A model generated the notes under the pieces. That model searched no databases. It worked only from the letters and a program-made list of their open reading frames with translations, and was not told the DNA's origin. A program made the position numbers and the translations under genes. Below, piece after piece: positions 27,140 through 60,561 of a stretch of 64,000 bases of DNA. Each line of letters opens with the position of its first letter. Position 1 is the first letter of the stretch. The stretch covers positions 1 through 64,000 of the IMG/VR virus record IMGVR_UViG_3300023174_000162. One strand, 5' to 3'. This DNA comes from a virus.

Positions 27140-28983
27140 TGGGCATACTATCTAAGCTTGGAGCTGTTGGTGATGTGCTACGAAATAAAATATCTGGTAG
27201 CGCTGAGGGTGAGACAGAAAAAAAAGATGCGTATAAAGAGCCTGATACTAAGAAAGAAAAAGACGCAGAGAAAGAACCTAATAAGAAAGAAAAAGACGCA
27301 GAGAAATTATCACCTAAAGATTCTGGCGATCCACTATATGATATAGTAAAAAGTATTGAAGGATCTATTAATGACTTTGTAGAGTTAATAATTGGGGAAG
27401 GTCCTCAGGCAGAAGCTATTCCACCAACTGTTGACGGTACTAAACAAGAAAAAAAACCTAAGCCTCCTAAGCCCCCTGAAGTTACAGAAATTCCTATTTT
27501 CAAAAAATTAAAAGCTTTAGCTGGAATACTAGTTGGGGTTGTTCTTCAATTTGCATATCCATTATATCTAAAAGCTAAAGAGATGTTCGAACAAACAAAG
27601 CTTTGGGTTGAAAAAGCACAGATACTTTTTGAAGAGAAAGTGTTAACATTCTTTACTGTAGATATTCCAAGGTATGTTGAAGACATCAAAGACTTCTTTG
27701 TAGTCAAAGTTCCAAGCTACTTTTCTCAGTTTACAGATATGATTTCTGTTGGAATCCAGAACATTCTAGATATTCCAAAAGAAGTATTATATGCAATGGA
27801 GGGATTTTCTGTAAAATTTGGTCGAGATGTTATTGACACTATATCTCCATGGCTGTCTAAAATTGGTATAGATCTAGATGATTACAGTAAAGAGCTTAAA
27901 AAACGTGAAGAAAAAATAAACCAAAAGAAAGAAACATTAGACGCAACGCAAGCTAAACGTGAGAAAGAATATCAGGAAAGAAGTAAAGGACGTGACTCTG
28001 AAAGACTTGCATTAGATGCCGCCAAAGAAAATGAAAGGCAACGTGAAGATAAATTAAGACAAGAAGAATTTGATAGAAGAAAAAAAGAAGTTGCTAATAA
28101 GCAGAAAATTCTAGATGAAAAACAGGCACCTACTGCTCCAGCTGCTCCTGTTCCTGCTCCAGCACCTGCTGCTCCTGTTTCAACTACAGATGCTAAACCA
28201 GTTACAATATCTGCAAGCACTGGTAAAGCAGCGATGATCACAAAGTTAAATGAGAATAAAATAACAGATCCTACTGCAAGAGCTGCTATCATGGCTCAAG
28301 TAGGTCATGAATCAGGTGGTTTCACTACGCTTTCAGAAAATCTTAGATATAGCGCAAAAGGTTTATTAAATACATTTAAGAAATATTTTAAGACTGAAGA
28401 TGATGCACAGACATATGCTAGATTAGGTCCTGCTGCAATTGCTGATAAAGTATATGGAAATAGAATGGGAAATGCTCCTGAAGGTTCAGGAGATGGATTT
28501 AAATATCGTGGTAGAGGATTTATACAGTTAACAGGCAAAGATAACTATACAAAATTTGGATATGGTGGTAACCCAGATGCTGTATCAAGCCCAGATGCTG
28601 CAGCTGAAACTGCTATTAAGTACATGCTTGGATATAAAGGTGATTGGTCAAATATTACCGCTGTGACTAAATTTGTTAATGGTGGCACAATTGGGTTAGA
28701 AGATAGAGAAAAACATTTTAAAGAATACTTACAAGATCCAAGTGTAACACAAGTTACAGCTGCTGCCGCAAGTCCAGCTCCTTCATCTGGTGGAACTGGT
28801 AATCAAGTTGCTGCTGCTACTAAAAATGCAGATATTAAACCGCCAACACAACAGCAAACTGCTTCTATATCTACAAATAAACCACAGCAAGTTGCTTCAA
28901 ATGGAAGTGGGGGAAGATCATCTCCCCCCAGCTCAGATGGTATTAATAAACAATACCATGATCACTTCGCTTTACCAGCTTAG
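27139..28983 (+). CDS. Tape-measure/hub-like protein 2 with C-terminal GH19 domain
   Basis: 614 residues. The N-terminus MGILSKLGAVGDVLRNKISG resembles that of its neighbour. A tandem KKEKDAEKEPN repeat (about 37-56), a hydrophobic/amphipathic block (VGVVLQFAYPLYLKAKEMFE near 135-155), a charged coiled coil (about 250-330) and an Ala/Pro linker follow. Residues about 366-532 are a GH19 lysozyme/chitinase-like domain: AQVGHESGGF with the catalytic Glu, GDGFKYRGRGFIQLTGKDNY and NGGTIGLEDREKHF. The domain is homologous to the endolysin at 62746-63354. It is probably the tail-borne peptidoglycan hydrolase replacing the lysozyme domain missing from gp5. The TAG stop overlaps the end of gene 32. 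Confidence 0.88.
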   Translation: MGILSKLGAVGDVLRNKISGSAEGETEKKDAYKEPDTKKEKDAEKEPNKKEKDAEKLSPKDSGDPLYDIVKSIEGSINDFVELIIGEGPQAEAIPPTVDGTKQEKKPKPPKPPEVTEIPIFKKLKALAGILVGVVLQFAYPLYLKAKEMFEQTKLWVEKAQILFEEKVLTFFTVDIPRYVEDIKDFFVVKVPSYFSQFTDMISVGIQNILDIPKEVLYAMEGFSVKFGRDVIDTISPWLSKIGIDLDDYSKELKKREEKINQKKETLDATQAKREKEYQERSKGRDSERLALDAAKENERQREDKLRQEEFDRRKKEVANKQKILDEKQAPTAPAAPVPAPAPAAPVSTTDAKPVTISASTGKAAMITKLNENKITDPTARAAIMAQVGHESGGFTTLSENLRYSAKGLLNTFKKYFKTEDDAQTYARLGPAAIADKVYGNRMGNAPEGSGDGFKYRGRGFIQLTGKDNYTKFGYGGNPDAVSSPDAAAETAIKYMLGYKGDWSNITAVTKFVNGGTIGLEDREKHFKEYLQDPSVTQVTAAAASPAPSSGGTGNQVAAATKNADIKPPTQQQTASISTNKPQQVASNGSGGRSSPPSSDGINKQYHDHFALPA

Positions 28984-29879
28984 TTATCTTCTTCTGCAAG
29001 TTTCTTAAAGAAGTCTAGTGAGTCATCATCATCATCCAAAGATGGAGCCTTAGGTGCAGCTACAGTTTTGGCTTTTGGTGCAGGTGCTTCACGCTCTTCT
29101 TCAACTACACTATTTTTAGGTGCAGTACCAAGAGCAAGTACCCGATAAAGTTTTGCTTTTAGTTCATCATAAGACTTGAACTTAGAAGGATGAATGAACT
29201 GCTGCAATGAATGCGCAGGACTCTTTGCATACGATTCCCAAACTGCTTCTAGTTGGTCATCATCTTCAAACAATGCTCCTGCTGTATCAAACGAAGAATT
29301 ATCATAATTACGATAACCTTCAACATTACGAATCTTCACTTTAAAGTTAGCACCTTCCCATAGATCAAATGGGTTAATTGGCTTCTCATCTTCAAACTCA
29401 GGATTCATTGCAGCATTTAGTTTATCAAAGATCTTTTTGCCATACTTGAACATCATGACTTTACCTTCATTCTCTGGATGAAGAGTATCTTTGATAACGT
29501 ATACGTTCGAGATGAAAGTCAAACGACGTTTCTGTTTACGAACGATTTCTTTATTGGATTCAACACCTGAATCCCACAACTGTTTGTTGTATTCTCCAAC
29601 TGGATCGTTTTCACCGATAGTTGATAGAGACTTCTCGATGTACCAACCACCAGGACCTTGAAAACCGTGATCCCAAATACGAACGAATGGAACATCTTCG
29701 CCTTCAGGTGCAGGTAGAAAACGAATAACGCTAAAGCCGTTACCAGCTTTATCTACGTCAGGACGCCAGAAATTCTTGTCGTCATCATCGTTTGTGTAGG
29801 TCTTATTTAGTTTGGTAAGCTCTGAGTTGAGCTTTTCGAGAGAGGCTTTTGACTTGCGCTTGAGGTCAGCTAGTGACAT
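28980..29879 (-). CDS. 32: Single-stranded DNA-binding protein gp32
   Basis: 299 residues (T4: 301). The basic LAST-like N-terminus (SLADLKRKSKASLEKLNSEL), the OB core (NGFSVIRFLPAP, WDHGFQGPGGWYIEKSLSTI, NEGKVMMFKYGKKIFDKLNA) and an acidic C-terminal tail (SLDDDDDSLDFFKKLAEEDN) are all in place. T4 binds zinc through H64, C77, C87 and C90. Here H71 remains, but the other positions align with S84, V94 and Y97, and the protein has no cysteine at all. Its role in replication and recombination should stand, with a zinc-free fold. A late promoter lies 69 bp upstream. Confidence 0.94.
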   Translation of the reverse strand: MSLADLKRKSKASLEKLNSELTKLNKTYTNDDDDKNFWRPDVDKAGNGFSVIRFLPAPEGEDVPFVRIWDHGFQGPGGWYIEKSLSTIGENDPVGEYNKQLWDSGVESNKEIVRKQKRRLTFISNVYVIKDTLHPENEGKVMMFKYGKKIFDKLNAAMNPEFEDEKPINPFDLWEGANFKVKIRNVEGYRNYDNSSFDTAGALFEDDDQLEAVWESYAKSPAHSLQQFIHPSKFKSYDELKAKLYRVLALGTAPKNSVVEEEREAPAPKAKTVAAPKAPSLDDDDDSLDFFKKLAEEDN

Positions 29880-29955: not shown

Positions 29956-30456
29956 TTACTTACTTGAGGCGATCGACTGGTTTGCAAAGATAGAATTTGT
30001 GGTAATATGAGGATTCCGTCTTGCTTCGATCTTATCAGTTTCAGCATTATAAACTCTAGTCCTAAGACCTGAACTAGACATTTTGTGATCGCGTTTATTG
30101 AAATATAAAGCGATGTCACGTGATTTACAGATATCCCTACCTGTAAAATTCGTATGTCGATATTCTTCACCAAGAATACGAACATTAATTGGATATGCAC
30201 GAAGGACTTCTTCAAGGTCTGCTTCAGTAATATATGGAATAATCTCATCTACATACTTACATGCAGATAATTGGATGAATCGTTCTGTCAATGTTTGAAT
30301 AGGTTGATTCTTATTATCACGATCAATAGTTGGATCTACCTGTAATCCACAGATTAGATATTCACAATGCTCTTTTGCTTCACGCAACATAAGAATATGA
30401 CCTGCATGTAGAAGATCAAACGTTGATGCTGTAAAACCTATTTTATGCTTCTGCAT
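29956..30456 (-). CDS. Cytidylyltransferase-like nucleotidyltransferase
   Basis: 166 residues. ASTFDLLHAGHILMLREAKE at residues 11-30 has the HxGH signature of the TagD/RfaE-C/NMNAT superfamily, and HKMSSSGLRTRVY near 123-135 is the second nucleotide-binding motif. It should transfer CMP or AMP from a nucleoside triphosphate to a phosphorylated substrate. It lies between genes 59 and 32, an unusual place. The phage also has heptose genes (57836-61665) but no obvious heptose nucleotidyltransferase there, so this could be the missing activating enzyme. Glycerol-3-phosphate or NMN are other possible substrates. Confidence 0.82.
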   Translation of the reverse strand: MQKHKIGFTASTFDLLHAGHILMLREAKEHCEYLICGLQVDPTIDRDNKNQPIQTLTERFIQLSACKYVDEIIPYITEADLEEVLRAYPINVRILGEEYRHTNFTGRDICKSRDIALYFNKRDHKMSSSGLRTRVYNAETDKIEARRNPHITTNSIFANQSIASSK

Positions 30457-31030
30457 AGAACTTCTCCTTTAGAATCTTTCTCATCTTAAACTTATCGTAC
30501 TTTAAGAACGGCCGATATTTGTTCATCTTCATATGTACTCCAGGCCAGATGATTGTATCAGCGATGTTCTTGTCAAAGTATTTAGCGAACTTCAAAATAT
30601 CATCAATGATCACAAATGTGTCTAATGAGATGTTCTTTCGAAGATACTGTTTTAAGATATAAGGATGTTGTCCATCTTCTACTACAAAGTTCTTATTAAG
30701 ATCTTCATGTAACGCATTCAACTCAGTTTTAAAAAGATATGACAAAGACTCTTGTCGTTTCTTCCATTCTAAATAATTAGAATCACCATCATGATGTTCA
30801 TCAAACAGTTGACCAATCCATACTTGAGGATTATCGATGAGATTCACCATTAAGAAGTTCTCTATATCATCTTTCTTAGCGAGCTTATGAAAATAATACT
30901 TATCTTTTCTTGTTTCAAAAGAAGTGACAGACGCATTAGTCTTTCCATTGTACTTGAAGTAGTCATATCCCTTTTGCGTGAAGTGTTGCTTCATCGCCAG
31001 GTATTTCATGTAAGCTTCAAATGGATTCAT
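30443..31030 (-). CDS. 59: Helicase loader gp59
   Basis: 195 residues (T4 gp59 is 217). YMKYLAMKQHFTQKGYDYFK, then RKDKYYFHKLAKKDDIENFL and ISLDTFVIIDDILKFAKYFD follow the gp59 pattern of two helical domains. gp59 loads the gp41 helicase onto gp32-coated forks. It sits in the 33-59-32 order known from T4, overlapping gene 33 by 14 nt and the nucleotidyltransferase by 14 nt. Confidence 0.88.
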   Translation of the reverse strand: MNPFEAYMKYLAMKQHFTQKGYDYFKYNGKTNASVTSFETRKDKYYFHKLAKKDDIENFLMVNLIDNPQVWIGQLFDEHHDGDSNYLEWKKRQESLSYLFKTELNALHEDLNKNFVVEDGQHPYILKQYLRKNISLDTFVIIDDILKFAKYFDKNIADTIIWPGVHMKMNKYRPFLKYDKFKMRKILKEKFYAEA

Positions 31031-31274
31031 TGAATGGAAGTTTTGCTTTCTTTGGAAGATAGTTTAGATTCTCGGCTTCTGCTTGAAGCTTTGATTTTAG
31101 TACCATACTAGATTTAACTATTGATGCTGCTGTTTCAATCTCAATACCGTTCTTTTGAGCTAGATGTACAATAGCATCTAGATACGGTTCTTTAGTTCGT
31201 AATACAAACTCTTCTACTTCTTTGATAAACTTCGAGGACGTGATTACATTTTCCAACTGTTCTTCATGATTCAT
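31017..31274 (-). CDS. 33: Late transcription co-activator gp33
   Basis: 85 residues from ATG 31274, which has AGGA 5 nt upstream; an in-frame TTG at 31289 is less likely. FVLRTKEPYLDAIVHLAQKN, then VKSSMVLKSKLQAEAENLNY resembles gp33 (112 residues in T4), which bridges RNA polymerase, gp55 and the gp45 clamp at late promoters. The position upstream of gene 59 is the T4 order. An early-type promoter lies directly upstream. Confidence 0.8.
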   Translation of the reverse strand: MNHEEQLENVITSSKFIKEVEEFVLRTKEPYLDAIVHLAQKNGIEIETAASIVKSSMVLKSKLQAEAENLNYLPKKAKLPFNESI

Positions 31275-31306
31275 AGTATTCCTAAACAATAAATAACCAT
31301 ATGATT

Positions 31307-31357: not shown

Positions 31358-31819
31358 ATGGACTTAGTATCTGCAATGAAAGCTGCTCTAGCTGACACAT
31401 ATTCATTTTACCTGAAAGCTCATTACTATCATTGGAACGTAGAAGGACCAGACTTTAAACAATACCATGAACTATTTCAAATGGTTTATGAAATTGCATA
31501 TGGAAGTGTAGACCAATATGGTGAAGAGATTCGTGCTTTAGACGCATATGCACCAGGTTCTTTATCTCGTTTTGCTGAACTAACAAAGATTACAGATGAT
31601 AATACAGTTCCTGTAGCTTTAGAGATGGTAAGACGTTTAGCAGCTTCTAATGATGTAGTATTATCATCCATTGAAACTGCATACGAGTTAGCAGAAGCAG
31701 CGCATCAACACGGTCTAAGTAACTTCTTAGCTGAACGCCAAGATGATCATAGGAAGCTGCGCTGGATGCTCAATGCTACACTAAAAACACAACCATTAGA
31801 ATCAACATCACTAAAATAA
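31358..31819 (+). CDS. dps: Dps-like ferritin
   Basis: 153 residues, a normal Dps length. HYYHWNVEGPDFKQYHELFQ at residues 22-41 and the D52/E56/E57 cluster (VDQYGEEIRALD) give the inter-subunit ferroxidase pattern. Dps dodecamers store iron and protect DNA from peroxide. It stands alone on the plus strand with an AGAGGA ribosome site. Phage-borne dps could protect host or phage DNA during infection, or supply iron; that role is inferred. The family call is strong. Confidence 0.92.
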   Translation: MDLVSAMKAALADTYSFYLKAHYYHWNVEGPDFKQYHELFQMVYEIAYGSVDQYGEEIRALDAYAPGSLSRFAELTKITDDNTVPVALEMVRRLAASNDVVLSSIETAYELAEAAHQHGLSNFLAERQDDHRKLRWMLNATLKTQPLESTSLK

Positions 31820-32044
31820 TTACTTATGATTCATGATGTATGTAATGCATACATCATTCTTAGCTTCACCATAAGCACATTTAATGGCGATTGGATCAAC
31901 ACCTTTTCCAATCGCCATTTCCATATTCTTCGCAAATAGTTCATCTTGTTTAACATTACGGCTATATGTAGCAAGAGAAAAAAATACAACCATAATTACT
32001 ATTGCAGAAATTACTGTAAATAGATTGAGATCTAACTGTTTCAT
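31820..32044 (-). CDS. Small single-span membrane protein
   Basis: 74 residues with one membrane helix (about 8-27: LFTVISAIVIMVVFFSLATY) and a short C-terminal domain with two cysteines (IAIKCAYGEAKNDVCITYI). The start overlaps the stop of the SleB-type hydrolase (ATGA), so the two are co-translated. That pairing hints at a lysis or envelope role. No family name is known to me. Confidence 0.72.
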   Translation of the reverse strand: MKQLDLNLFTVISAIVIMVVFFSLATYSRNVKQDELFAKNMEMAIGKGVDPIAIKCAYGEAKNDVCITYIMNHK

Positions 32045-32583
32045 ATTTTGTACTCCCTCTTCAATTCAGGATCTTTCGATCGTTTATAAAATACATGATT
32101 GCCAATCCTTGCTGTAACATTTAATTTCCAGCCAGGTCTTATATAATTGGCATGATAATACATAGCACCTTTAGTGCTGTCCTCTATATTCTCATAGTTC
32201 ATCATGGCGTAAATAGCAATATTTCTTATCTCATTATATAGAGGAGTTCCTACTATTTTTTTTCTTCTTATCAAGAAACTTTGATCGCAGTACCAAGAAA
32301 ATTGGCATACGCCTGCAGTTTTCTGTTGCACTACTTCACAGATGGTATCTGGAAAAGATGGCGATGAAACACGATTTAATGTTACCATCGCAACAGCAAG
32401 TTTACCTTCATCTGGTTCATAACCAGCTTCAAATAAAATATTCTCTGTCAAACAGTTAACTTGCTTTTTAGCTTCATTAGAAAGCTGATAGTACTCTACA
32501 ACCATTGGTGTTGTTGTATCAGCGGCTGTAAAATTAAATAATAATATTGATAGAATGCTTGTTAATATTAACAATTTACGCAT
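32041..32583 (-). CDS. SleB/CwlJ-type cell wall hydrolase
   Basis: 180 residues. An N-terminal signal peptide (RKLLILTSILSILLFNFTAA) precedes a Hydrolase_2 domain: CLTENILFEAGYEPDEGKLA with the catalytic-type Glu, VAMVTLNRVSSPSFPDTICE, GVCQFSWYCD and GAMYYHANYIRPGW. SleB-family enzymes are lytic transglycosylases acting on peptidoglycan. Export would make it act from the periplasm, perhaps as a second lysin beside the GH19 enzymes. RBS AAGGAG is present. Confidence 0.9.
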   Translation of the reverse strand: MRKLLILTSILSILLFNFTAADTTTPMVVEYYQLSNEAKKQVNCLTENILFEAGYEPDEGKLAVAMVTLNRVSSPSFPDTICEVVQQKTAGVCQFSWYCDQSFLIRRKKIVGTPLYNEIRNIAIYAMMNYENIEDSTKGAMYYHANYIRPGWKLNVTARIGNHVFYKRSKDPELKREYKI

Positions 32584-32631: not shown

Positions 32632-32904
32632 TCAGGTAGACTTTTTGCTAGTAGTCTTTTCTGGAGTAATGTTCGAAACAAAACCATTCAAGATTTGAGC
32701 CTTGTTAATGATATCTGTTTCTGTAGGATAGGCTGGGAAACCTGGATGGTCTGGAGGTGTTTGTCCAGCGTGACGAGCATTTTCAACTTTGACTGACCAG
32801 TCGCTTGAAATTTGCTCACGTCGGCCAAAGTGATCTTCAGCTAACATATCTTTGGCCATTTTTAAAAGTTCGAGGCGAATCTCGAAAGGTGACATATTAC
32901 TCAT
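32632..32904 (-). CDS. Conserved phage protein, unknown function
   Basis: 90 residues. SPFEIRLELLKMAKDMLAED begins a helical N-terminus; the middle is PPDHPGFPAYPTETDIINKA and the tail is basic. I recognise this pattern from small proteins of marine T4-like phages without a known role. The start has AGGAG upstream, and a perfect late promoter box lies 63 bp before it. Confidence 0.75.
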   Translation of the reverse strand: MSNMSPFEIRLELLKMAKDMLAEDHFGRREQISSDWSVKVENARHAGQTPPDHPGFPAYPTETDIINKAQILNGFVSNITPEKTTSKKST

Positions 32905-32976: not shown

Positions 32977-33048
32977 TTAGCGATTCGCAATATACATCGT
33001 GATCTCGAACCCAAAGCGTAGATCAGTTGCTGACGGTTTTGTCCACAT
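32977..33048 (-). CDS. pqqA: PqqA, precursor peptide of pyrroloquinoline quinone
   Basis: A 23-residue ORF, ATG at 33048-33046 with AGGAG 7 nt upstream, and TAA at 32979-32977. It begins MWTKPSATDLRFGFE and ends ITMYIANR. This is the proteobacterial PqqA pattern (MW-K-P---DLR-G-E-T-YI--R) over its whole length, including Glu15 and Tyr19, the two residues PqqE crosslinks to make PQQ. No pqqB-E genes are in the window, so the peptide would feed host enzymes. It lies between the tmRNA and a late promoter. PQQ is the cofactor of methanol and other quinoprotein dehydrogenases. Confidence 0.9.
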   Translation of the reverse strand: MWTKPSATDLRFGFEITMYIANR

Positions 33049-33104
33049 AATTTTCTCCTAGTTATTAATAAAGCTACTACATATAGATCAGTAGTTGAAG
33101 ATGC

Positions 33105-33435
33105 TATAGCAAAAGTTCAACATGAGACCATTAATTCGGACCGACTGATTGGGTGATAAGGACAGTCGGTGAAAACCTCATCTAGAGCTTAAGCTGCTAG
33201 AGCGTAATCGCTATCGTTTGCGTTTACTTGTTTTGCTTGATTTACGGTCATCGCCTACCGTGTTGCCTTCTCTACTATCTCACCCTGTCGAAACCTGGTC
33301 ATCCCCATCAGAAGTACACAATCCCCGCTAGAGCCCTCAGAGGTTTCTTTCATCTAGGACAACTATGCACTTCTGGTGGAGATGGAGGGAATCGAACCCT
33401 CGTCCAGAATGCCTTCGCTTTGAAGGAATTACAAC
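33105..33435 (-). ncRNA. ssrA: Circularly permuted (two-piece) tmRNA
   Basis: On the minus strand the acceptor piece comes first: a GAGGG-TTCGATT-CCCTC T-arm and CATCTCC-A-CCA ending at 33374. A linker of about 67 nt follows, then the coding piece starts at 33306 with GGGGATG and GGTTTCGACAGGG. The two acceptor strands form 7 bp with G3-U70, the alanine identity pair. The tag frame (33221-33189) reads ANDSDYALAA and TAA. The linker ends pair (AGAAGTGCA with TGTACTTCT), as in precursors of permuted tmRNAs. A CCGACTG/CAGTCGG stem follows the tag. Outer ends are estimates. It should rescue stalled ribosomes during infection. Confidence 0.92.
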
Positions 33436-33448
33436 AATTCTTTTTATC

Positions 33449-33550
33449 TTACTTATAAGTTGAACAGTAAAATAATACAATACAAACACCGACCATTAAT
33501 GCTCCAATCAAACCTACAAAATATCCAGCAAAAAAACATGAAGCAGACAT
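33449..33550 (-). CDS. Tiny membrane protein (33 aa)
   Basis: ATG at 33550 overlaps the stop of the next small gene by one base (TAATG). It reads MSASCFFAGYFVGLIGALMV and ends VFLYCSTYK-like (VLFYCSTYK): a single hydrophobic helix. Coupling to the 45-residue gene supports translation; no function is known. Confidence 0.5.
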   Translation of the reverse strand: MSASCFFAGYFVGLIGALMVGVCIVLFYCSTYK

Positions 33551-34355: not shown

Positions 34356-34454
34356 ACTATTCAGGGCCTCCCAGAGAGGCCCGGACCGTGGTTGATGTAT
34401 TTCTATATGACCTACCGTGCCCGGACATCTCTGGGAGGCTCCGACCGGAGTCGG
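34356..34454 (-). ncRNA. GC-rich structured intergenic element A
   Basis: A 12-bp perfect inverted repeat (GCCTCCCAGAGA at 34366-34377, TCTCTGGGAGGC at 34428-34439) encloses 50 nt, followed by a CCGAC-CGGA-GTCGG hairpin. It is strikingly GC-rich inside an AT-rich genome. It shares an (A)NNATTC plus GGCCTCC/CCAG-rich start with elements at 36838 and 51257. The strand of function is unknown; transcription from the flanking genes is on the minus strand. Confidence 0.5.
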
Positions 34455-34833: not shown

Positions 34834-35775
34834 TTATGCTACTTCTGCAAATTCTACTGCATTCTCGAGAGCTTTGATTTTCTTGTCTCGAGTTGTACCA
34901 TACCAACTGTTGTAAACTCGGGTATCTTGATCACGACCAAGATGGTGGTCACAGAGGTAAGTAACTGCATTGAAAGCCTGCCACCAAGAACCGCGTGCAA
35001 AGTTTGCACCTGGCTGAGATTCCATAACTTCCAAGCATGCTTTTGCATTCTTCGAGATCTTCGCTTCATCGCCTTTGGCGTTCGAAGTCATCGGGAATAC
35101 AGAGTTGAAGTACTCAATCAGAGAATCAGATTTGTAGAAGCGAGTACCCAAGAACTGAGCCATCTCCTTGTACTGATCCAGCTTGTCTTTAGCAATACCA
35201 AGAGCAAGCTTTGCCTGATTTGCATCGAAGACATTACGATGCGACATGTTGAACTGCATTTCTGCTTTCTGATTTAAAGACAGAGTCAACGTGTTATTAC
35301 ATACAACTCGGATTGGAGTGAAACGAATATCAATCGATTTACCAAATTGATGTGGATTAGTGAAAAGCAAGTAGCTATCCACTTGATCACCTTTAAACAA
35401 GTCGAAGGATTCCTTGACCTTAGCCAAAGCCCAAACAACTTTACCATTCTTCAGAGATCCAGCAGTATGCATCTCCATATCACCAGCATGAACGAAGTCA
35501 TTAAAGAATTCAAATGCTGTTTCGTTTTGAACAGGATTCCATGAATCGGAAACCATAGTGAGGATGCTCATGTCGTTATCACGAACGAGAGCTTCAGTAC
35601 CAGTAGCAACTTTCTTGCCACCCATTTCTACAAACGCGGGAACTTTGTGTACTTCCCAATCAAGACCAGCTTTTTCCAACATCTGTGCAGGAGAAAGATC
35701 GTTAGGAACTTTCTCGCCCAGACCATGCCAAGGTACTTCACCAGCGTATGCCATTGTTTCAATTAAGTGTGCCAT
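34834..35775 (-). CDS. DUF932 / phage-plasmid-like protein (TIGR03299 type)
   Basis: 313 residues. AYAGEVPWHGLGEKVPNDLS near the N-terminus, VSDSWNPVQNETAFEFFNDF and DIRFTPIRVVCNNTLTLSLN are hallmarks of this widespread phage and plasmid family, whose biochemical function is not established. The C-terminus has GSWWQAFNAVTYLCDHHLGR. It follows an early-type promoter and is therefore probably expressed early and strongly. Confidence 0.88.
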   Translation of the reverse strand: MAHLIETMAYAGEVPWHGLGEKVPNDLSPAQMLEKAGLDWEVHKVPAFVEMGGKKVATGTEALVRDNDMSILTMVSDSWNPVQNETAFEFFNDFVHAGDMEMHTAGSLKNGKVVWALAKVKESFDLFKGDQVDSYLLFTNPHQFGKSIDIRFTPIRVVCNNTLTLSLNQKAEMQFNMSHRNVFDANQAKLALGIAKDKLDQYKEMAQFLGTRFYKSDSLIEYFNSVFPMTSNAKGDEAKISKNAKACLEVMESQPGANFARGSWWQAFNAVTYLCDHHLGRDQDTRVYNSWYGTTRDKKIKALENAVEFAEVA

Positions 35776-36040: not shown

Positions 36041-36173
36041 TAAGCTTCTCCACATTATCAAATTCATCTTCAAGGAAGATAGTACCACCATACAACTCTT
36101 TGTACATCACAGCAACATTTAAAATATAGAACATCATAATTTTACCGTCTTTTGTGATGAGCACATATTTCAT
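36024..36173 (-). CDS. Small hypothetical protein (49 aa)
   Basis: ATG 36173 lies immediately after the stop of the upstream gene. It reads MKYVLITKDGKIMMFYILNV with an acidic end (ENVEKLNEEAE-like). Tight spacing to both neighbours and a normal start/stop arrangement support coding; no function known. Confidence 0.55.
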   Translation of the reverse strand: MKYVLITKDGKIMMFYILNVAVMYKELYGGTIFLEDEFDNVEKLNEEAE

Positions 36174-36470
36174 TTAGTCCCTACGATCATAGACGTATAC
36201 GTCGATTTTAGTTGCATTCTTAATACCACCTACGATGTTTCCAGCCCAATCATAACTTACTGGACCTTTGCAAGTTTCTCTTGTCCAGAAATTAGGTTTA
36301 ATTTCCATCTTCACTTCAGGTTTACGACCACGAAGCACAACACGCTTTTTATTAGGATTACGATAGTTGATCGATTTGACTACTTTCTTGATCAATGCTA
36401 GGTTTTCCATGTCGCTGGCAGAGTTCACGTCGAGGGTAGTCACATAAGAAGTCGAGGTACGTTTTGTCAT
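36174..36470 (-). CDS. Hypothetical early protein
   Basis: 98 residues from ATG 36470, with AAGGA 8 nt upstream; an ORF extending to 36497 overlaps the previous gene and lacks a ribosome site. Residues 20-60 are basic (KKVVKSINYRNPNKKRVVLR), followed by VSYDWAGNIVGGIKNATKID. It might bind nucleic acid, but no family is recognised. Confidence 0.65.
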   Translation of the reverse strand: MTKRTSTSYVTTLDVNSASDMENLALIKKVVKSINYRNPNKKRVVLRGRKPEVKMEIKPNFWTRETCKGPVSYDWAGNIVGGIKNATKIDVYVYDRRD

Positions 36471-43896: not shown

Positions 43897-44538
43897 CTAT
43901 TCATTCATTAGATCATCAACGAAATTTAAAAGATATTGCTGATGAGTGTTATGATGCCAATGCTTTCTCATCCAAGTATAATTATCATACCAACTTTTCT
44001 GACTTTCAGGATGACATCCTATTAATCCAACTTTACCTTGTATGATAGCCATAGCATCACCATTTGGATATGTGGCTATAGTCTCATATTCACCATCTCC
44101 TGTAAATGCACATCCATCGTAGAAGAACATATTTTGGGAATAACCATTCCATGATATAGGCATCGCTTTAGCATGAGGACGTCTAGTGCATGTGTTAGGT
44201 CTAGTTATGTATTGCTCGGCTTTGACAGAGTCAAGTATGTCAAAATAATCAGATCCCGCCCAATATGCTCCCATGCATATACCCAAGTAATGCCCACCGT
44301 TATTAACGAAGCTACGGATGCGTTCAACATGAGATCTAAGTAGATAATTCCAGCTATCGGCATCGCCAACACCACCAGGAAAAGCAACCATATCAACATC
44401 ATCAAAAAAATCATCTTCTAACTCCTGTTTGGTAAAAATTTTAAAGTCATAGTGCGGTGTAAGAGCTTGCATTATACCATTCACCGACTGAATCGAGCAC
44501 TTTGGCTGATGAACGAATAAAGCAATTTTACGACGCAT
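43897..44538 (-). CDS. BPL_N / glutamine-amidotransferase-like protein
   Basis: 213 residues from ATG 44538 (a TTG at 44547 sits closer to the AAGGAG and is the alternative). KIALFVHQPKCSIQSVNGIM, then VDMVAFPGGVGDADSWNYLL, YLGICMGAYWAGSDYFDILD with the nucleophile Cys and VGLIGCHPESQKSWYDN fit the DJ-1/PfpI-like BPL_N domain found in amidotransferase-like proteins. Reaction unknown. It is unusual in phages and lies in a small operon with a phosphoesterase. Confidence 0.8.
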   Translation of the reverse strand: MRRKIALFVHQPKCSIQSVNGIMQALTPHYDFKIFTKQELEDDFFDDVDMVAFPGGVGDADSWNYLLRSHVERIRSFVNNGGHYLGICMGAYWAGSDYFDILDSVKAEQYITRPNTCTRRPHAKAMPISWNGYSQNMFFYDGCAFTGDGEYETIATYPNGDAMAIIQGKVGLIGCHPESQKSWYDNYTWMRKHWHHNTHQQYLLNFVDDLMNE

Positions 44539-45097
44539 AATTACCAATTATCTCCTTAAATCCAACTGTTCCACCTTGCTCTTGTATCTTCTTGATTGCA
44601 TCTTCAAACAAGATAGGTCTAAAGTCTGTTTGCTCTACACATACACAATAATATCGAGGATCAATTTCACCTGATTCATTTAGTACTCTATTACTATGAG
44701 TATGACCATGAATGTTAGTTCCAAATCGATATAGCGCGGATGGATGAAGAGGTATATGAGAAAGAATCATACCATTCATTACATGATATCCACGGACATC
44801 TTTAAAGAAAGGAGTATATTCTTCTAGTTTAAAGATATCATGATTACCTTTAATGAGAACTTTTTCACCGTTCAAAAGACCCAGTATCTTCAAAGCTTTA
44901 CGATTAATGACTACATCACCAAGATGATATACCTTATCTTTAGGACGAACAGTATCATTCCAACGTCTCACCATCTCCTCATCCATATCAGCTGGATCAT
45001 CCCATGGACGAAGCTTAGTGACACCATCATTCCTCATGAACTTGCAAACTCCCGCATGACCAAAATGTGAATCACTTGTAAGAAAAACTGCTGGCAT
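44528..45097 (-). CDS. Calcineurin-like metallophosphoesterase 1
   Basis: 189 residues from ATG 45097, overlapping the upstream stop (TAATG) with AAGG 9 nt before it. Motifs: FLTSDSHFGH, VYHLGDVV, LIKGNHD, and NIHGHTHSN, the full metal-binding set of small phosphoesterases such as YfcE-type enzymes. Substrate unknown; cyclic nucleotides, phosphodiesters or nucleic acid ends are possible. Confidence 0.9.
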   Translation of the reverse strand: MPAVFLTSDSHFGHAGVCKFMRNDGVTKLRPWDDPADMDEEMVRRWNDTVRPKDKVYHLGDVVINRKALKILGLLNGEKVLIKGNHDIFKLEEYTPFFKDVRGYHVMNGMILSHIPLHPSALYRFGTNIHGHTHSNRVLNESGEIDPRYYCVCVEQTDFRPILFEDAIKKIQEQGGTVGFKEIIGNYAS

Positions 45098-54381: not shown

Positions 54382-54456
54382 TGGTGACTCTAGTAGGAAT
54401 TGAACCTACATTAAACATTTTAGAGATGCTCGCATTAACCATTATGCTATAGAGTC
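54382..54456 (-). tRNA. tRNA with CUA anticodon (amber suppressor)
   Basis: Acceptor GACTCTA/TAGAGTC (7 perfect pairs), D-stem GCAT/ATGC with GGTT loop, anticodon stem AGCAT/ATGTT with 7-nt loop CTCTAAA, hence anticodon CUA, which reads UAG. T-arm GTAGG-TTCAATT-CCTAC, A73, CCA encoded. The anticodon position is fixed by U33 and by stem pairing. Amino-acid identity cannot be read from sequence. Confidence 0.85.
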
Positions 54457-57835: not shown

Positions 57836-58828
57836 TTACTTTAAGACAACTTTTGATCCTTCCCACGAGAACTTAAAGTTATAAACTTTGCAACCGACAA
57901 ATTTGTTTATCTCATTGATAACATTCTGTCGTTTCTCTGGGGAAACATAAAAGAGGAAGAATCCACCTCCACCAGCTCCTAGGAGTTTTCCTCCAATCGA
58001 ACCAGCTTTAATGGCTTTATCATAGACGTCGTCGAAGAACGACTGGGATATTCCTTTAGCGATCTCTTTCTTTTCCATCCACGCTTCATGAAAGAGATTA
58101 CCAAAATCGTCGATCTTACCTTCACCTAAGTAGGTAGCAGCAACAAAGGCGCGATCAACTGCTTTTTTAATTAATTTAAATTTATCACCACCTGATTTGA
58201 TGGCATCGTTGTGCTTCTTAAGTATCTCATTAGCAGATCGAGAAACTCCACTGTATACTAGCAGAAGATTATTTTCTAGAGTTTGTAGATCTTTTGAATT
58301 TGTTGTGGGTTTTAAGACGTTGACAGTTTCATTCGAATTGAATTGAAATAGGTTTAGACCACCAAATGCAGCAGCATATTGATCTTGTTTACCTATAGGA
58401 TATCCACATCTATCTATCTCAACTTCACATGCAGTTTCTGCTAACGCATTAGGACTAGAAATATTAAGACCGTTATAAGCAGCATCGCAACCATTGACTA
58501 ACCCCACTGTAAATGCAGAAGAAGACCCTAAGCCAGATCCTTTTGATGGGATATCGCTTAGGGACGCAATTGTGATCTCACGATCAACTTTAAAATATTG
58601 TAACGTCTGTTTAGTAATCTCATGGTTCATCATATCTAGATTATCGAGATCTTGTATCTCATCATACATGATTCGAATACCACGATTAGGAGTCTTATGG
58701 ATACAGACGTTGATGTACTTATCAATTGTAACAGATAGAGCTGCTCCAGGAGATTTACTATAAAACGATTTCATATCACTTCCTCCTGAGAAGAAGGATA
58801 TGCGTAATGGTGTTTTTGTTACTATCAT
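57836..58828 (-). CDS. hddA: D-glycero-D-manno-heptose 7-phosphate kinase (HddA-type GHMP kinase)
   Basis: 330 residues. TKTPLRISFFSGGSDMKSFY starts the GHMP fold, IPSKGSGLGSSSAFTVGLVN (residues 93-112) is the ATP-binding motif and KLLGAGGGGFFLFYVSPEKR the C-terminal motif. The family phosphorylates heptose 7-phosphate at C1 to the 1,7-bisphosphate. The operon with gmhA and gmhB supports this over other GHMP kinases. Its start overlaps the glycosyltransferase stop by 4 nt. Confidence 0.88.
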   Translation of the reverse strand: MIVTKTPLRISFFSGGSDMKSFYSKSPGAALSVTIDKYINVCIHKTPNRGIRIMYDEIQDLDNLDMMNHEITKQTLQYFKVDREITIASLSDIPSKGSGLGSSSAFTVGLVNGCDAAYNGLNISSPNALAETACEVEIDRCGYPIGKQDQYAAAFGGLNLFQFNSNETVNVLKPTTNSKDLQTLENNLLLVYSGVSRSANEILKKHNDAIKSGGDKFKLIKKAVDRAFVAATYLGEGKIDDFGNLFHEAWMEKKEIAKGISQSFFDDVYDKAIKAGSIGGKLLGAGGGGFFLFYVSPEKRQNVINEINKFVGCKVYNFKFSWEGSKVVLK

Positions 58829-59823
58829 GTTCTATACGTAAACATCTGTTCAGCTTTAGTGATCTTACGACTCTCAACAGTTGGATATTTTTCTTTTAGT
58901 TGTGTTAATAGGTTAGTCCACTTGGCTGCAATCTTACCCCAACTATAACGATGATCAGTGTAGGATTTTACAAACTTACTATAAGCTTGAATATCATCCT
59001 CTAGTACATTGCCAATAGCAAAGTCAAGCGCATTATAGAACTGCTGAGCATGGATGTTCTTATCTTGATCTCCTTGATACATAAGATTCAATCCACCTGA
59101 CGTCTCATATAGAGCACCATAGTTAGGATGAACACATATCAATCCAGCTGACATAGCTTCTAACATAGCACGACATGATGTTTCAAGCCATGTGGATGGA
59201 TATGCATGAATGTGACACTTCTTTAGATGCTCATGTAGTTCAGTATTAGGCACAAAGCCGTGATAGTTGATCTTTGGATGTTTACGACATGCCTCATAAA
59301 GAGGTTCAAACTGTTTATCAGCTTCTGGCCATCCATAGATCTGAAAGCTAGAGAATACGTCTAACTCGATGTTATCATACTTCTCACACAGCTTATCAAA
59401 TACGGGAATTAGAATGTCCAATCCACGTTGAGGTGTAGAAGAATAGACAAGACGAATCTTATCCTTAGGTTTCTCTACCCATTCTATTGGTTGAATACCA
59501 GAATCAATAACAGTATTTTCAGTATTGTATGGCATATTGCATAACAACTGAAAACGACTATATTGCCAATCTGAGATATAAACAAAGTGATGAAACTTAT
59601 TACGATATGCCTCATCCTTTAGTTTATTACACTCAGGATCTTCTGGCATATCATGCAACCAGTAAACCCTGATCTTTGTTTCATCTAGATCTCTTACACG
59701 AGAACATATAATTTGAAAATCATCTAGCAGTTCGGATGGAATGAGTTGCGCTAACTTACGTTTAGCGATCTCTGTTCCACCATTTGCATTTTTACTAATT
59801 TCATTTTCTTCAAATCCGGCCAT
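58825..59823 (-). CDS. Glycosyltransferase (GT4-like)
   Basis: 332 residues. The C-terminal half carries the GT-B nucleotide-sugar site: RLVYSSTPQRGLDILIPVFD, NYHGFVPNTELHEHLKKCHI, HAYPSTWLETSCRAMLEAMS and AGLICVHPNYGALYETSGG with the E-x7-E region. The N-terminus is shorter than usual and begins MAGFEENEISKNANGGTEIA, close to the substrate loop GGTE. It probably transfers a sugar, perhaps heptose, to LPS, virion protein or DNA. Acceptor unknown. Confidence 0.88.
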   Translation of the reverse strand: MAGFEENEISKNANGGTEIAKRKLAQLIPSELLDDFQIICSRVRDLDETKIRVYWLHDMPEDPECNKLKDEAYRNKFHHFVYISDWQYSRFQLLCNMPYNTENTVIDSGIQPIEWVEKPKDKIRLVYSSTPQRGLDILIPVFDKLCEKYDNIELDVFSSFQIYGWPEADKQFEPLYEACRKHPKINYHGFVPNTELHEHLKKCHIHAYPSTWLETSCRAMLEAMSAGLICVHPNYGALYETSGGLNLMYQGDQDKNIHAQQFYNALDFAIGNVLEDDIQAYSKFVKSYTDHRYSWGKIAAKWTNLLTQLKEKYPTVESRKITKAEQMFTYRT

Positions 59824-59832
59824 TTTATATCC

Positions 59833-60561
59833 TTAAATCTTAAATCCACTTTTCATAGAGTCATCATAGAACATCTGCACAGTCTCACGTGAGAACTCAC
59901 GAAGATCTTTACCGATAGTAGGTAACTTGTAGATCATATCGGGTGTCATAGTAATAATATCTACACCAAGTTCCTTTGCTTGAATATAATTATAGATCTC
60001 TCTAGGTGATGCCCAAAGAAATTCAAGGTTTGGATATCGTGCACCACGAAGATTAATACCATCTTGGAAGATAGGAATAGGATCAACGCCTGCATCTGCA
60101 ATACGACCAGCAAAGATCGAGATGATCGATGGGATATGCATGTTTATATTCTGAATAGCACTACGTACTTGATCGATCGTAAACACTGCAGTGATGTTCA
60201 TAGGAACTTCTTGCAAGCTTAAACTACGAATTAGATCATAGCTATCATATCCCTTTGTATTCATAATAGGGATCTTAACATATACTTTTGCACCTGCTTC
60301 TTTTGCCCATGATTTAATAAGCAAAGCTTGACGTTCCATCTCATCAAATTCATCAGCAAATACTTCTAAACTAATACTCTTCTCAGGACAGTTTAGTGCA
60401 ATATGCTTAAGAGCGTCTTTAGCGAACTGCTCGTAATCCGTCACTCCGCTCTTCGCCATTAATGTTGGGTTCGTCGTGAATCCTTTTATCATAGGATCTT
60501 GTGCCATTCGGATTATGTCGCTCCACTTGGCGCTGTCTGAGAATACTTTGATGTCTTTCAT
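59833..60561 (-). CDS. Transaldolase-like enzyme
   Basis: 242 residues. KVFSDSAKWSDIIRMAQDPM, then KGFTTNPTLMAKSGVTDYEQ, LEVFADEFDEMERQ, AKVYVKIPIMNTKGYDSY with the Schiff-base Lys96 and ISIFAGRIADAGVDPI match the small transaldolase/fructose-6-P aldolase family. In a heptose operon, making sedoheptulose 7-phosphate, the GmhA substrate, is the obvious role (inference). ATG 60561 has GGAG upstream and lies 143 nt inside gmhB. Confidence 0.9.
   Translation of the reverse strand: MKDIKVFSDSAKWSDIIRMAQDPMIKGFTTNPTLMAKSGVTDYEQFAKDALKHIALNCPEKSISLEVFADEFDEMERQALLIKSWAKEAGAKVYVKIPIMNTKGYDSYDLIRSLSLQEVPMNITAVFTIDQVRSAIQNINMHIPSIISIFAGRIADAGVDPIPIFQDGINLRGARYPNLEFLWASPREIYNYIQAKELGVDIITMTPDMIYKLPTIGKDLREFSRETVQMFYDDSMKSGFKI

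Follow-up and report, generated by a model that had tools for sequence, protein, structure and literature searches.

Permuted tmRNA Genes in Phages and Bacteria

tmRNA is a ribosome-rescue RNA of bacteria. Two-piece forms have already been published in phages, in Melnitz on OM43 bacteria and in Mosig on SAR11, and 53 structures among public phages have been called two-piece tmRNA (PMC9004378). pqqA, the gene for the PQQ precursor peptide, is likewise on record in a T4-like methylotroph phage, Lake Baikal VP_266, predicted to infect Methylophilaceae; the passages found on its PqqA peptide mention no association with tmRNA (PMC7678222). The window analyzed here, a 64-kb stretch of a 66,040-base IMG/VR viral record, comes from an aquatic bacterial virus, a T4-like myovirus by its markers (baseplate proteins, gp32, gp33, gp59, T4-type RNase H, and PhoH), and carries a permuted tmRNA gene next to pqqA (Table 1). 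Because phage two-piece tmRNA has already been published, this gene is not new in kind; for its linkage to pqqA, and for a phage-specific lineage of such genes, we found no description in the literature searched.

Like the window, Melnitz (MZ577097) and Mosig (MT647606) are T4-like aquatic phages with a complete two-piece tmRNA in a slot before gp33-like and gp59 genes. They differ in the type of the RNA: the best Rfam model is alpha_tmRNA in Melnitz (106.7 bits) and in Mosig (67.6 bits), whereas it is beta_tmRNA in the window. A glutamine riboswitch lies at the 3' end of the Melnitz tmRNA, but Rfam finds none in the window. Melnitz also has a pqqA (76140-76205), some 30 kb from its tmRNA; among the three phages, the two genes are adjacent only in the window. 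This apparent pqqA (36141-36206 in our locus L334) is not annotated as such in the Melnitz record, which lists a hypothetical protein on the other strand (76100-76195). A DNA search of phages for the window's tmRNA locus returned short matches only.

On the bacterial side, the betaproteobacterial permuted tmRNA (RF01850) shares its anatomy, sequence core, and tag type with the window gene. The phage copies nevertheless form phage-only clades, their intervening segment is longer (mostly 56-116 nt; in the 16 Burkholderiales genes compared, mostly 21-49 nt), and they encode CCA more often (44/46 phage copies vs. 7/16 Burkholderiales genes). From tmRNA_permuted (RF04321; PMC11915505), which the window gene matches over its full length, we found no difference, and this is the family under which the gene can be filed.

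Table 1. Features of the tmRNA region, in window coordinates.
Feature	Position	Strand	Basis
Circularly permuted tmRNA (ssrA), precursor span	33098..33466	-	ARAGORN; Rfam RF01850 161 bits, RF04321 157 bits
Acceptor (3') half: T-arm, acceptor-stem 3' strand CATCTCC, encoded CCA ending at 33374	33374..33436	-	Rfam alignment and sequence
Intervening segment, predicted to be removed on maturation; ends pair as a 13-bp stem, GAAGUGCAUAGUU/GAUUGUGUACUUC	33307..33373	-	Pairing and fold
Coding (5') half, beginning with acceptor-stem 5' strand GGGGATG at 33306	33123..33306	-	3' end approximate
Tag reading frame, ANDSDYALAA and stop	33189..33221	-	ARAGORN
Coding-half 3' hairpin, ACCGACUG...CAGUCGGU, counterpart of the beta_tmRNA terminal stem	33140..33170	-	Rfam alignment
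pqqA, 23-aa PQQ precursor peptide, 49 nt downstream of tmRNA	32977..33048	-	Sequence; homologues in several methylophage isolates
Conserved 90-aa ORF (family F3), after tmRNA/pqqA in relatives	32632..32904	-	Relatives' loci
Cell wall hydrolase (Hydrolase_2), in conserved slot	32041..32583	-	Relatives' loci
gp33-like late-transcription coactivator (PF16805)	31017..31289	-	BLASTP to Melnitz and Mosig homologues
gp59-like helicase loader	30443..31030	-	Melnitz and Mosig homologues
gp32-like ssDNA-binding protein	28980..29879	-	Melnitz and Mosig homologues
DUF932 protein (family F5), upstream side of slot in several relatives	34834..35775	-	Relatives' loci

A Complete Two-Piece Gene in the Window

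ARAGORN calls the window gene permuted, and both Rfam models agree: beta_tmRNA matches at 33123-33487 with 161.3 bits (E 6.8e-50; gathering cut-off 84), is covered in its entirety, and is the top model of its clan, and tmRNA_permuted matches at 33189-33436 with 157.0 bits (E 2.5e-31). The acceptor half comes first and the coding half second on the same strand. All seven pairs of the acceptor stem are present, G3-U70 included, as are all five pairs of the T-stem, and the ends of the mature pieces can be read directly from the sequence, with CCA ending at 33374 and the coding piece starting with its 5' G at 33306. The closing stem of the 67-nt intervening segment is predicted to adjoin the acceptor stem, the fold is more stable than that of shuffled sequences (z -3.9), and the tag closes with a small hydrophobic end followed by a stop. 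A complete permuted two-piece tmRNA gene in the window is confirmed, far beyond chance. The initial annotation had proposed such a gene in a phage, with the halves in this order, the same stem, G3-U70 pair, tag, paired linker, and mature ends, and all of this holds; the comparison of Rfam models that it recommended comes out in favor of beta_tmRNA.

A further argument, that the ALAA ending of the tag points away from Alphaproteobacteria, fails because the alpha-type tmRNAs of Melnitz (tag ANDNYVPVDYALAA) and Mosig (tag GEDNFALAA) end in ALAA just as the window tag does. Only the covariance-model score is diagnostic of tmRNA type; the ALAA ending is no guide.

Several other features of the window deserve mention. 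One tRNA with a CTA anticodon (54382-54456, minus strand), typed as Pyl by ARAGORN and scored at 68.5 bits by the Rfam tRNA model, is a possible amber suppressor; full amber recoding, considered on account of this tRNA, is unlikely because TAG still ends 4 of 58 ORFs. Possible auxiliary genes encode a transaldolase (59833-60561), a Dps/ferritin-like protein (31358-31819), a biotin-ligase/amidotransferase-like protein (43897-44547), and a GHMP kinase with a glycosyltransferase (57836-59823). A GC-rich inverted repeat, gcctcccagagaggcccgg ... gcccggacatctctgggaggc, lies between ORFs at 34360-34445.

A Shared Slot and a Recurrent Neighbor

On the minus strand, the window tmRNA is followed by pqqA, the 90-aa ORF, the cell wall hydrolase, a 74-aa ORF, gp33, gp59, a cytidylyltransferase, and gp32; the Dps/ferritin-like gene lies among them on the plus strand. 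In 63 of the 87 phage tmRNA loci with enough flank, the tmRNA strand carries gp33 or gp59 no more than 4.5 kb downstream. Judged by gene order, the tmRNA lies in a T4-like slot that is conserved ahead of gp33-gp59-gp32 and common to Melnitz and Mosig. On a gp59 tree (quickly built, some of its branches being long), the two tmRNA sequence types switch at least nine times on supported branches, and the best count of 12 switches compares with about 27 in shuffles. These repeated switches argue for a stable slot whose alleles are exchanged among phages.

The downstream neighbor was correctly recognized as pqqA: its product has real PqqA features, with Glu-x3-Tyr within a GFE[IV]TMY core, and a Shine-Dalgarno-like AGGAGA precedes its ATG. 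But is the pairing of the two genes a matter of chance? With pqqA loci sought by DNA patterns, both genes were present in 49 viral records, the window included, and formed 18 pairs no more than 250 nt apart, all on the same strand and 15 with pqqA downstream; random placement would yield about 1.9. Counted from the tmRNA, pqqA occurs up to 700 nt downstream or 400 nt upstream in 19 of 168 evaluable loci, never on the opposite strand, and permuted tmRNA is present in 11 of the 12 pqqA-carrying records of at least 100 kb. Both gene orders occur among phages, the slot also exists without an adjacent pqqA, and the gp59 tree shows at least four changes of adjacency on branches with support. Given the excess of close pairs over random placement and the repeated changes of adjacency, the pairing is recurrent and not the product of a single joint acquisition. 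The latter had been suggested from the adjacency in the window; we rejected it, as no host pqqA locus (L123-L241) contains a tmRNA. Our guess is that the pairing allows two short transcripts in high demand to be expressed together.

A host neighborhood of the two genes does exist in one Methylotenera genome (G130, locus L283), where pqqA and a one-piece ssrA diverge, pqqA being some 220 nt upstream, and an integrase-like ORF follows ssrA. We considered this neighborhood as a source of the phage arrangement and rejected it because pqqA is divergent and ssrA is one-piece.

A Lineage Apparently Maintained by Phages

If the window tmRNA is of the betaproteobacterial type, did it come from a methylotroph host, with which this type had been thought to fit? 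Among 27 PQQ-host genomes, mostly of Methylophilaceae (OM43, Methylopumilus, Methylotenera, and Methylophilus), none exceeds the cut-off for permuted tmRNA and 21 exceed that for the standard one-piece form, the other six being drafts without a full-length match. The host-lineage argument fails because the plausible hosts carry one-piece tmRNA, and the proposed comparison with host ssrA likewise sets the phage form apart from that of Methylophilaceae and other PQQ makers. For the same reason, we rejected Methylophilaceae and other PQQ-making Burkholderiales as tmRNA donors. On present evidence, neither candidate host group supports a host-derived permuted gene.

The sequence of the RNA tells a similar story. 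A scan of 84,980 prokaryote species genomes with a 40-nt core motif of the window tmRNA gave no match, and 100 viral loci of the collected set match it, many of which were fetched with a nested motif; none of 399 Pseudomonadota genomes matches the motif of the second phage tmRNA type. In a tree built from 56 tmRNAs, the window belongs to a supported clade of five, all from phages, and is 97% identical to one of them, and the bacterial rows lie outside the phage-only clades; the deep branches of this tree are weak and it is unrooted. The absence of the motif from the 84,980 genomes and the position of the window in a phage-only clade suggest a lineage that appears to be phage-maintained and looks phage-specific, with the unrooted tree allowing transfer in either direction. 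A recent gain from a betaproteobacterial host with a permuted tmRNA, an explanation of origin and not of function, could account for beta_tmRNA being the best model, and such bacteria exist, as strong permuted tmRNA occurs in 16 of 399 Burkholderiales genomes. This origin is nonetheless very unlikely: these are only 16 genomes, none of which carries the phage-like IANR-type pqqA (six genomes do), Methylophilaceae are one-piece, the window is nested among phages, and its core motif is missing from bacteria searched. Two Burkholderiales loci (L313 in G398 and L310 in G325) contain an odd permuted tmRNA match, with an aberrant tag or acceptor, plus weak further matches, and may be prophage copies.

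Should the lineage prove specific to phages, little could be read from the type of a phage tmRNA about the host, and the host-switch argument made for Melnitz from its alpha-like ssrA would weaken, because the tmRNA type in this slot differs among phages. A broader scenario, tentative and rather doubtful, is that a permuted tmRNA lineage has its long-term home in T4-like phages, which exchange it in one slot, use it in one-piece hosts, and have perhaps seeded it into the few Burkholderiales with such a gene, with pqqA placed alongside as part of a co-expressed translation-plus-energy module.

What the Phage tmRNA May Do

Phage copies vary in a telling way. All 46 in a first set have a perfect 7-bp acceptor stem, built from 11 different sequences in which pairs 4-6 vary on both sides and G3-U70 is invariant; among 182 distinct copies from wider scans, the stem is perfect in 177 (15 stem sequences), G3-U70 is kept in 181, CCA is encoded in 174, and the tag ends in LAA, MAA, or IAA in 177, with both sets including related contigs, so that the events are not independent. 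Compensatory changes around an invariant alanine determinant form the pattern expected of selection for a chargeable tmRNA, and the comparison places the phage tmRNA under strong constraint: both halves are complete in the window, and alanine identity and tag features are kept through compensatory change across phages. A passenger, i.e., a host gene caught by chance as an integration-site fragment or a decaying copy and without a role, is conceivable since ssrA is a common integration site and leaves fragments in prophages (PMC9004378), but it is hardly credible for a gene with intact halves and plentiful compensatory changes, in a slot conserved across a wide T4-like group, and of a lineage whose motif is found in no bacterial genome searched.

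We favor, with a probability of roughly 70%, the reading that a functional two-piece tmRNA is made from the window gene, a member of a lineage kept by phages, and that this RNA would act in trans-translation with host SmpB and recycle ribosomes during infection. The steps that we infer, from transcription on, are as follows: (i) the tmRNA would be transcribed together with the replication and late-transcription gene region; (ii) host tRNA-processing enzymes would excise the paired intervening segment; (iii) host AlaRS would charge the acceptor half through G3-U70; (iv) host SmpB would bring the charged tmRNA to ribosomes stalled on truncated mRNAs; and (v) translation would resume on the tag, whose LAA end would direct ClpXP-type proteolysis. 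The benefit may be that ribosome recycling is kept up while the phage shuts off its host. Together with the 19 tRNA genes that ARAGORN finds in the window, the tmRNA fits a translation-support kit; pqqA, a small gene in the same orientation, is probably separate from it, supplying PQQ precursor peptide and sharing the transcription unit. SmpB was found in all three host genomes searched and in none of 25 phage records, larger relatives included; because the window derives from a 66-kb fragment, a phage SmpB could lie elsewhere in its genome. These phages offer a natural test of two questions: can a two-piece tmRNA function in cells equipped for the one-piece form, and why do lytic phages retain the rescue RNA but not SmpB, its protein partner?

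Could the phage RNA instead inhibit the host system, by titrating SmpB or competing with host tmRNA and thus damping trans-translation? The tmRNA of mycobacteriophage DS6A is reported to be reduced to little beyond the tRNA-like domain, and a similar molecule inhibits tmRNA (PMC4131195; PMC11915505); the phage form is also unlike the one-piece tmRNA of plausible hosts. Still, a decoy would need no tag, whereas the reading frame of the tag is conserved together with its LAA end, and the near invariance of G3-U70 indicates that the RNA is kept chargeable. We regard inhibition as unlikely and return to a tmRNA that works in rescue.

A functional phage tmRNA might also change the fate of the proteins that it tags, e.g., so that host proteins are reused in phage synthesis, a role proposed for Melnitz (PMC9004378). 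Some relatives have longer tags (24-33 aa) that include conserved extra segments and are compatible with such a role, but the window tag is an ordinary 10-aa one, close to host tags such as ANDDNYALAA, which makes altered tagging quite improbable here. The long-tag group of phage permuted tmRNAs (L049, L337, L345, L346, L366, L369, L375, L394, L412, L538, and others) has tags such as ANADTFDFSAMSFTGNTVRGAANESRFALAA and ANVSTFKFWQSPVSVAANDEAFALAA, in which an in-frame extension precedes an ordinary tag-like end and synonymous changes are seen.
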